Assembly (NCBI GenBank): GCA_004294495.1
Contig: REAS01000072.1
Span: forward strand, 1-33,543
DNA: 33,543 bases
Source: Sphingobacteriales bacterium
Lineage (GTDB): Bacteria > Bacteroidota > Bacteroidia > Sphingobacteriales > Sphingobacteriaceae
Direction of reading: 5' to 3'
Under the pieces are notes generated by a model. The model worked only from the letters and a program-made list of their open reading frames with translations. It had not been told where the DNA came from and made no database searches. Shown piece after piece: positions 6,979 to 31,520 of the stretch. The translations under genes were made by a program, and so were the position numbers. Positions within the stretch are counted from its first letter, which is position 1, and each line of letters begins with the position of its first letter.

Positions 6979-7053
6979 CTAATAGCGAAGAATGTATCAT
7001 CCTCAATCTAATTTTTGTTATTTTATAAAGCGTAATTTATGCTTTCTTTAGGT

Positions 7054-7151
7054 GCGTTAACGATGGTAGCGGCATCCTTTTTATCAATTGCCCCCGACTT
7101 AAGTCGGGTCAATTGATAAAAAGATATAGCGGACAGCGTGTTAAAACGCCC
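7054..7151 (-). repeat. Quasi-palindromic dispersed element, copy A
   Basis: Minus strand reads GGGCGTTTTAACACGCTGTCCGCTATATCTTTTT-[hairpin 7078-7122]-GGATGCCGCTACCATCGTTAACGC; same ends as copies B-D. Confidence 0.85.
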
Positions 7152-17034: not shown

Positions 17035-18276
17035 TTATAAATTTTGTTTAATAACAGGGTGTGTTTTTAAACTTTTTGCAGCTAAAAATATACCTATTAA
17101 TACCAATATAGAACTTAATAAAAAGGGTGCACCCGGAAAATACACAGGTGCTTTATTGTTGGTAAAATAGGCAAATAGGTTAGTCATTACTGGTGGTGCA
17201 AAAATGGTGGTTGCGCTCATTAAGCTAGCTAAAGCACCTTGTAATTCCCCTTGTTCATTAGCAGGGGCAAAGCCGCTAATAATACTTTGCAATGCAGGGC
17301 CGGCAATACCACCCAAAGCATAAGGTACTATAAAAGCAAACATTAATAAACCGTTAGTTGCAAAAGCAAAAAGTAATAAACCTAAGCTTGATAAAAATAA
17401 ACCTATATATAAAACCTTTTCGGGGCCAAATTTAGGGATAACCCAACGTATTAAACCGCCCTGTACAATGCCTACCATTAAGCCTACAAAACCTAAGGAA
17501 TAACCTACCCAGGCTTCGTTCCACCCAAATTTTTGCATCCCGTAGTACGACCAAGTGCTTTGTATAGCATTGTTTGCAATGTACATTAAAATTAAAGTAA
17601 ATATTAAACCGCTAATGGCGGGATATTTTTTAAGCTGCATAAGCGAGCCTAAAGGGTTGGCTCGTTTTATATCAAACTTTCGTCTGTTTTCTTTGGATAA
17701 AGATTCGGGCAGTACAAAATATCCGTAAGCAAAATTTAAAAAACTAAAACCAGCAGCTGCAAAAAATGGTATTCGCGAACCAAATTGTCCTAATAAACCA
17801 CCTATTACGGGTCCTAAAATAAAGCCTAAACCAAAAGCAGCACCAATAATTCCAAAGTTTTGCGCTCTTTTTTCGGGTGTACTAATATCGGCAATATAAG
17901 CTGTTGCTGTTGTAAAGCTTGCACCTGTAATGCCAGCAATTATACGCCCAATAAATAGCCACCAAATAGATGGTGCAAAGGCTAAAAACAAATAATCGAT
18001 ACCAAAACCTAATAACGAAAACAATAAAACTGGCCTACGACCATATTGGTCGCTTAGGTTGCCTAACACAGGTGCAAAAATAAATTGGGTTAAAGCGTAA
18101 GCTAAAGTAAGCCATCCACCATACTCAGCAGCTGTACTTAAATCTCCTTTAATTAATTCTTTAATTAAGGTGGGTAAAACTGGTATAATTATTCCTAAGC
18201 CTGTTACATCTATTAAAAGGGTTATAAATATAAACCCCAATGCTGCTTTTTTAGTTTCCCCCATAATATTTTGCAA
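17035..18276 (-). CDS. MFS transporter (TetA-like drug:H+ antiporter family)
   Basis: 413 aa, 12 TM-like; [50 protein letters not shown]. Confidence 0.9.
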
Positions 18277-18325
18277 AAGTGCAAATTTTAAGGAGTTTTA
18301 TAAAGGTTTAGGCGTTAAAAAATTT

Positions 18326-18583
18326 GGCTCTTCGCCAAAAACAGTGGATGGACTTTTAATAATAGGATTTATTTACATTAAACAGGTGTGCGATTGGGGA
18401 CGGCCTAGCTATTATTTGGATAGGGAAGTCAATAAATTTTTTTGTAGAAACATTCATAAATCGCTAGCCAAGCAATTCGCAGCGTGTTGCAATAACATTG
18501 TTAAACCACTAAATTGGTTAACACGCCTAAAAATGCCAAATATTTCAATAAAATTATTTAACCATACATTATGGCGAAGAGCC
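18326..18583. mobile_element. 258-bp ISL3-like MITE with 8-bp target duplication
   Basis: Ends GGCTCTTCGCCA ... TGGCGAAGAGCC (12-bp perfect TIR), flanked by direct AAAAATTT at 18318-18325 and 18584-18591; no transposase ORF. Confidence 0.85.
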
Positions 18584-18591
18584 AAAAATTT

Positions 18592-19515
18592 TCAGTCTAA
18601 AAAATCAATATTTCTTTTTAAACCAGTAAATTTTGTTCGCTTTAAGGCTGATGATTTAAAGAGTTTGCCAAACACATCGTCGGTAATTTCTTGCCAATCT
18701 TGCTTCGTCATACCTAGTAAATCGGGGTGAGGAATAAATTCTTCGTGTTTGTTGGGTACTGCAAAACGGTTCCAAGGGCAAACATTTTGGCAAACATCAC
18801 AACCAAACATCCAATTATCCATTTTACCTTTAAAACTGTTTGGTAAATTATCTTTTAATTCAATGGTAAGGTACGATATACATTTGCTACCATCAACCAC
18901 ATAAGGCGCAATAATTGCTTCGGTAGGGCAAGCATCCATACATTTTGTACAAGTGCCACAATGGTCGGTGTAAAACGGTAAATCGTAATTAAGTTCTAAA
19001 TCAATAATCAATTCTCCTAAAAAAAAGAACGAACCCGCTTTTTTACTAATCAAGTTAGAGTGTTTGCCAAGCCAGCCAATGCCTGCTTTTTGTGCCCAAA
19101 CTTTATCTAACACAGGTGCCGAATCTACAAATGCTCGTCCATCAACCTCACCAATGGTTTCGTTTATAAACTCCATAAGTAAAGCCAGTTTTTCTTTTAT
19201 CACAAAATGATAATCGGTACCGTAAGCATATTTAGAAATTTTCGGAGCAGTATCATCCAAAGGTTTTTCATCAGTAAAATAATTTAAACCTACCGATATA
19301 ATTGATTTTGCACCATCAACCAGTAGCCTAGGGTCTAAGCGTTTATCAAAATAGTTTTCCATATACGCCATTTTGCCGTTATAGTTATTACGCAACCATT
19401 CGTCTAAACGTGGTGCTTCTTCCTCCAAAAAATCGGCTTTAGCTATTCCACAAAACAAAAAACCTAAACGTTGGGCTTCGGCTTTTATAAGTTGCGTGTT
19501 GTTATGGTTATTCAT
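18592..19515 (-). CDS. queG: epoxyqueuosine reductase QueG
   Basis: 307 aa; two 4Fe-4S motifs [16 protein letters not shown] and [11 protein letters not shown]. Confidence 0.95.
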
Positions 19516-31306: not shown

Positions 31307-31520
31307 AACCCGAGTTCGATTAAAGAATGTTTTTTTAGTAAAGATTAGGGCGTTTTAACACGCTTTTCGCTGTATCTTTTTTTATTTATCTATCCCCCCG
31401 CCCCCGGAACGGGGAGATTCGGCGTAAAAAAAGGATGCCGCTGTAATCGTTAACGCAAAAAATAGTTTATAATTTTGATAAACAGTAATTTATATTAGAA
31501 TTAACAATCGAACTCAGGTT
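31307..31520 (+). mobile_element. MITE-like unit with AACC(C/T)GAGTTCGATT ends enclosing quasi-palindromic copy D (31348-31456)
   Basis: Outer inverted repeats match 14/15; core GGGCGTTTTAACACGC...CCCCGGAACGGGG...GGATGCCGCTGTAATCGTTAACGC. Confidence 0.75.

Follow-up and report, generated by a model that had tools for sequence, protein, structure and literature searches.

An ISL3-type miniature element beside queG in a Sphingobacteriales genome: a deletion derivative that probably carries a captured structured repeat

Results

The insert adjoining queG

The stretch of DNA analysed here (the window, 33,543 nucleotides) belongs to a draft genome of a Sphingobacteriales bacterium (G000; 2.38 Mb, 192 contigs, 92% complete), and between an MFS efflux gene and queG it contains an insert of 258 bp, read directly at 18326-18583 (Table 1). 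The insert has a 12/12 terminal inverted repeat, GGCTCTTCGCCA at 18326-18337 and TGGCGAAGAGCC at 18572-18583, enclosing an interior of 234 bp, and the window has no further exact occurrence of GGCTCTTCGCCA. Beyond these 12 bp the inverted repeat continues with mismatches, the motif TGTGG being found again about 18 bp inward from each end. An initial sequence-only reading of the locus had described an exact 8-bp duplication, 12-bp ends and the absence of any spare base before the queG stop, and direct reading of the coordinates bears out all three: 0 bases separate the right duplication from the stop codon of queG, whose product scores 345.9 bits against TIGR00276 QueG (cut-off 200). This adjacency is nothing special, as several other copies of the element lie 3-20 bp from the end of an ORF. 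The element has no ORF of its own and thus, like a MITE, lacks coding capacity.

The nearest named relatives of the window QueG are from Sphingobacteriales MAGs (83-87% identity), followed by Pedobacter puniceum, P. glucosidilyticus and P. cryophilus (about 75-76%). The MFS efflux gene (17035-18276, minus strand), which flanks the insert on the side away from queG, resembles the Tet(A/B/C) family at 337 bits, below every curated Tet cut-off shown, and is therefore not called a resistance gene.

Table 1. Features of the insert and its flank, in window coordinates.
Feature	Position	Strand	Basis and remarks
Left 8-bp target-site duplication, AAAAATTT	18318..18325	.	Direct reading; other copies have different 8/8 duplications
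Left ISL3-type end, GGCTCTTCGCCAAAAACAGTGGATG	18326..18350	+	Outer 12 bp form a perfect inverted repeat; direct reading, comparison with copies and ISL3 elements, end matrix
Structured element (probably captured), 5' part	18395..18528	+	5' arms of helices A, B and C and part of the helix C 3' arm; alignments A1 and A2
Helix A 5' arm, GCTATTATTTG	18408..18418	+	3' arm deleted in the window copy
Helix B 5' arm, CAATAAATTTTT	18430..18441	+	3' arm deleted in the window copy
Helix C 5' arm, GCAATTCGCAGCGTG	18472..18486	+	3' arm reduced to CACGC (18522-18526)
Internal-deletion junction	18528..18529	.	93-94 bp absent relative to the 351-bp copies L002 and L003; alignment
Right ISL3-type end, reading inward GGCTCTTCGCCATAATGTATGGTTA	18559..18583	-	Outer 12 bp (18572-18583) form a perfect inverted repeat; direct reading, comparison with copies
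Right 8-bp target-site duplication, AAAAATTT	18584..18591	.	Direct reading
queG, tRNA epoxyqueuosine(34) reductase	18592..19515	-	Stop codon 18592-18594 adjoins the duplication; TIGR00276 QueG

Copies, target duplications and an empty site

When its own genome was searched with the element, 82 matching pieces were found at about 40 places, with identities from 100% down to about 70%; because many contigs end within a copy, a single copy split in two may in some cases have been counted as two places. The copies fall into two subfamilies, with the ends GGCTCTTCGCCAAAAACTGTGGATGGA and GGTTCTTCGTCAAAAACTGTGGAATAGA. Perfect 8-bp duplications, nearly all differing, are present around the window copy and nine more in the genome (they include AAAAATTT, AAATAATT, TATTATTT, AAAAGAAT, ATTTTATA, AATTATTT, ATTATATT, ACAACTTT and AAATATTT), and further copies have 7/8 duplications. 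In the sister species G015 a copy is flanked by the perfect duplication ACAATAAA, and in G016 one copy (L035) has, as judged by eye, AATTTTTA on either side. Chance is excluded as the source of the ends and duplication in the window, since GGCTCTTCGCCA is present there only twice and there are about 40 copies, many with duplications of their own.

To seek empty sites, we fused the two flanks of each of twelve copies and used them as queries against the three nearest species. One of the twelve gave a clear result: the copy on G000:C70, with the flanks AGATAGAT and AGATATAT, corresponds to uninterrupted AGATAAAT in G016:C84, where the target is present as a single copy. At the queG site the element is absent from all three species, and the DNA beyond the stop cannot be aligned, synteny being lost right after the stop.

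The closest siblings of the window copy, on G000:C74 (L002) and G000:C187 (L003), are 351 bp long and 96-97% identical to it, and they carry the 93-94 bp that it lacks; the window copy is therefore a deletion derivative. The length of 258 bp reported in the sequence-only reading is thus correct for this copy but is not the native size, and that reading overlooked both the deletion and the structured, widely distributed character of the interior.

A second miniature, of 181 bp and belonging to subfamily B, was observed on G000:C128 (L006 2031-2211) downstream of a 345-bp copy; it has a perfect AAAAGAAT duplication and is an independent internal-deletion derivative. Beside another MITE copy lies a TTTGCGTTCTTTGCGGT-type repeat (L015-flank query 1630-1830) which is itself high-copy in G015 and G005. 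Gene orientation around the copies showed no consistent bias, which makes a dedicated cis-regulatory role improbable in this genome; a terminator or UTR role was rejected on the same ground.

Affinity of the ends to ISL3

Within the same family, ISL3 (PF01610) elements are flanked by 8/8 duplications and have ends of the form GGNTCN6(C)AAAANNTGTGGA, spaced as in the MITE; in GGATCAGTTTCAAAACCTGTGGACT and GGATCATGTTCAAAAGTTGTGGAGT, for example, GG.TC, CAAAA and TGTGGA stand at the spacing of the MITE ends. The end of IS1251, GGCTCTTTGTCAAATGATGTTGG, and that of a Tetragenococcus ISL3 element, GGCTCTTTGTCAAATAGTGTTG, both start with GGCTCTTTGTCAAAT and accompany 8/8 duplications (AAAATTAT and TATAAAAA, respectively), as does the end of ISKox3, GGGTCTTCCCC (duplication ATGCATAT). 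We built a matrix from 30 ISL3 ends and scored the 33.5-kb sequence with it in 67,036 windows. The consensus left ends outscored every one of these windows; the right ends scored weakly, that of the window copy being equalled or beaten by 129 windows. ISL3 elements within the genus have different ends (GGATCAAGCGTAAAAGTTGGGG).

The element therefore shares with ISL3 insertion sequences (PF01610 elements, IS1251, ISKox3) its 8-bp duplications and ends that begin GG(A/C/G/T)TC and have TGTGG or TGGGG near positions 18-22, but it differs from them in having no transposase gene, in its length (351 or 258 bp against about 1.3-1.5 kb) and in that no autonomous partner was found. No match to ISL3 transposase models (PF01610, NF033550) exceeded the cut-off in the 92% complete draft. 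PF01610 and end-pattern searches of 18 genomes of the genus and about 300 of the family, and an exact scan of the whole genome-contig collection, yielded no autonomous element with GGYTCTTCGYCAAAAACTGTGG ends, and end-pattern matches outside the sister species, among the about 300 family genomes, were single-ended and at chance level. The ISL3 element with matching ends that the sequence-only reading had predicted was thus not recovered, and its designation "ISL3-like MITE" stands as regards the ends and duplications, whereas we only infer the mobiliser, having found no ISL3 transposase in the draft and, in the family genomes, no autonomous element bounded in this way. As a MITE by definition has no transposase gene, the missing transposase lowers only the claim of a current partner.

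ISL3-type MITEs are an already known kind. MITEAba12 is 113 bp long and has a coresident parent IS (PMC6382973). Like the present element it is short, non-coding and AT-rich, with IS-type ends, many copies and duplications on a subset of them (PMC6382973); our element differs in its length of 351 bp, in having no parent in the genome and in its class-wide conserved fold.

A conserved fold in the core

The core of full-length copies is about 226 nt and contains four covarying helices (A-D) and a candidate pseudoknot; this middle part aligns with sequences of the same genus that are without GGYTCTTC ends. The covariance model R1 matches the window at 18395-18585 with 114.5 bits, although the window copy, having lost 3' arms, cannot form the fold. 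Pairing is kept as the sequence changes, in helix A from GCTATTATTTG/CAAATCATAGC to GCTGTTGTTTG/CAAACAACAGC and TGAAGATTTG/CAAATATTCA, in helix B from AATAAATTTTT/AAAAATTTATT to GGGAAATCTTT/AAAGATTTCCC and in helix C from GCAATTC/GAATTGC to GCAAACCG/CGGTTTGC, and hairpin D (GTTCTTTTCTC/GAGAAAGAAC) likewise varies in ways that preserve pairing. The candidate pseudoknot would join an upstream CCTTGAT to the hairpin-D loop ATCAAGG, both mostly invariant, so that the argument for it is one of conservation.

RNAalifold, run on alignment A1, recovered helices A and B and mis-paired C, partly owing to palindrome inserts, and the structure was then assigned on a realignment without the palindrome-bearing copies. 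Across 27 sequences, two-sided changes occurred in 23 of 51 pairs, compared with 10.4 in shuffled and 5-10 in slid controls, and 91.9% of cells were paired. The 21 copies from other families (alignment A3), which lay outside the model-building set, had 93.1% of cells paired (63.3% when shuffled) and showed two-sided changes in 39 of their 45 pairs, counts that are inflated by alignment to the model's own structure; the slid controls, from the same alignment, stay low. Their covariation score was 0.524; shuffling gave 0.127, and the slid controls did not exceed 0.117. Compensatory base changes thus occur across the proposed helices, as in a conserved structured RNA, and this covariation shows the fold to be maintained by selection.

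Within the core of some copies lies a 20-bp palindrome, CCTGCCTGCCGGCAGGCAGG, in full or shortened; it occupies at least 3 different positions across copies and species (L008, L056, L054, L035, L131, L027 and L117-L119).

Distribution of the core

Within the family, R1 matches 181 of 301 genomes, which represent 16 of the 25 genera. In a sample from the whole class it matches 147 of 395, some of these matches being partial and not counting as full copies. Because only a few candidates were scored in each genome, copy numbers are minimum values. As background, the best match in non-Bacteroidota plasmid DNA reached 11.4 bits, against 114.5 for the window element. The core is often found in tandem arrays without ISL3 ends. 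On G116:C11 (L209 3768-6335) eight cores lie head to tail with a period of about 313 bp between a dnaK-like and a methyltransferase-like gene, and the spacers between them, of about 90 nt, are also similar. A separate ~119-bp tandem array is seen beside core arrays on G007:C10 (L118 1513-2101). Plasmids of Persicobacter and Aureibacter match the hairpin-D region only, and a phage search with the core gave no match. None of the 4227 Rfam families matched the element above its gathering threshold, and identity with any of them was rejected, the matches being at chance level. A search of the open literature, with incomplete coverage, found no description of the structured repeat.

Discussion

We consider it probable (roughly 0.78) that the element is a non-autonomous ISL3-type MITE which captured a pre-existing structured repeat, and of which the window copy is an internal-deletion derivative. 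Capture is suggested by the presence of this fold across the class without ISL3 ends, frequently as tandem copies. The structured repeat would have existed first and would then have been packaged between ISL3 ends in a small-genome lineage (G000, G015, G016 and G005), within which it would have spread as a MITE. An ISL3-family transposase acting in trans presumably recognised the ends, of about 25 bp, and inserted the element at AT-rich intergenic sites through an 8-bp staggered cut; the 3' part of the window copy may have been lost later or in transit.

The direction of capture may be the reverse of this, the ISL3 ends having been lost elsewhere. The core would then have belonged from the start to an ancient ISL3-type MITE, whose ends other lineages lost while the core went on spreading, and no capture would have taken place. 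Core and ends do occur together in all well-preserved G000 and G015 copies and in the G016 copy, and in some copies the ends have decayed; we nevertheless regard this history as unlikely, since in other genera the core forms head-to-tail arrays with different flanks and with no matching ends within 2 mismatches, and the ends are known from the small-genome clade only. More improbable again is mobilisation by another DDE family that makes 8-bp duplications, with a convergent likeness to ISL3 ends. The lack of an ISL3 transposase in the genome and the weak match of the right ends to the ISL3 matrix would fit such an enzyme, but the element has GGYTCTTYGYCAAA, TGTGG at a fixed spacing and an 8-bp AT-rich duplication in common with annotated ISL3 elements. 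That the insert is not mobile at all, being a bidirectional terminator or a chance palindrome, could draw on the finding that the strand folds better than its shuffles (z -4.55); it is refuted by the empty site and by the presence of about 40 copies, scattered through the genome and bearing 8-bp duplications of their own, and its probability is negligible.

Under the preferred history of capture by an ISL3-type MITE, the fold most likely acts as RNA, read from the plus strand of the window, a tentative assignment suggested by the excess of G-U over A-C in paired cells (56 against 16), to which a few columns contribute most. We put at about even odds the broader proposal that the MITE interior belongs to a structured noncoding RNA class not described before, about 226 nt long, which spread in dispersed and tandem form through the class and was made ISL3-type cargo by one small-genome lineage. 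Somewhat less probable, and in our view doubtful, is a role at the DNA level, in which the fold is a hairpin or protein-binding site that aids multiplication of the repeat, like REP or BIME, rather than an RNA. The many copies, the tandem arrays and the lack of bias in gene orientation speak for such a role; the strand preference for G-U over A-C speaks against it, and a multi-helix fold of about 226 nt far exceeds the 20-40 bp of REP sequences (PMC3733652).

What is unusual in this element is its cargo, a fold that is deeply conserved, shows strong compensatory evolution, is present in more than one third of the sampled class genomes and is absent from Rfam. The covariance model can be used to annotate a major unnamed intergenic repeat, and in the small-genome lineage one can study how such a repeat comes to be carried by a transposon and whether its fold benefits the transposon, the host or neither of them. 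Natural alleles for comparison exist in the window copy, with its deletion, and in the 351-bp copies, which are near-intact.

Correia, ERIC and BOX elements are structured mobile repeats. So are REP and REPIN sequences (PMC3733652, PMC3116915). All of these resemble the present element in being intergenic, multi-copy and palindromic; it differs from them in its larger multi-helix fold, candidate pseudoknot, class-wide covariation, tandem arrays and lack of an Rfam match. Flavo-1 RNA (RF01705) is, like the element, structured and multi-copy in the same genome, but it is a separate family of 76 positions with no match to the element. Two Flavo-1 RNAs above the gathering threshold lie in the window, at 7046-7147 (plus strand) and 31352-31461 (minus strand), and a further one was observed at L006 1129-1238.
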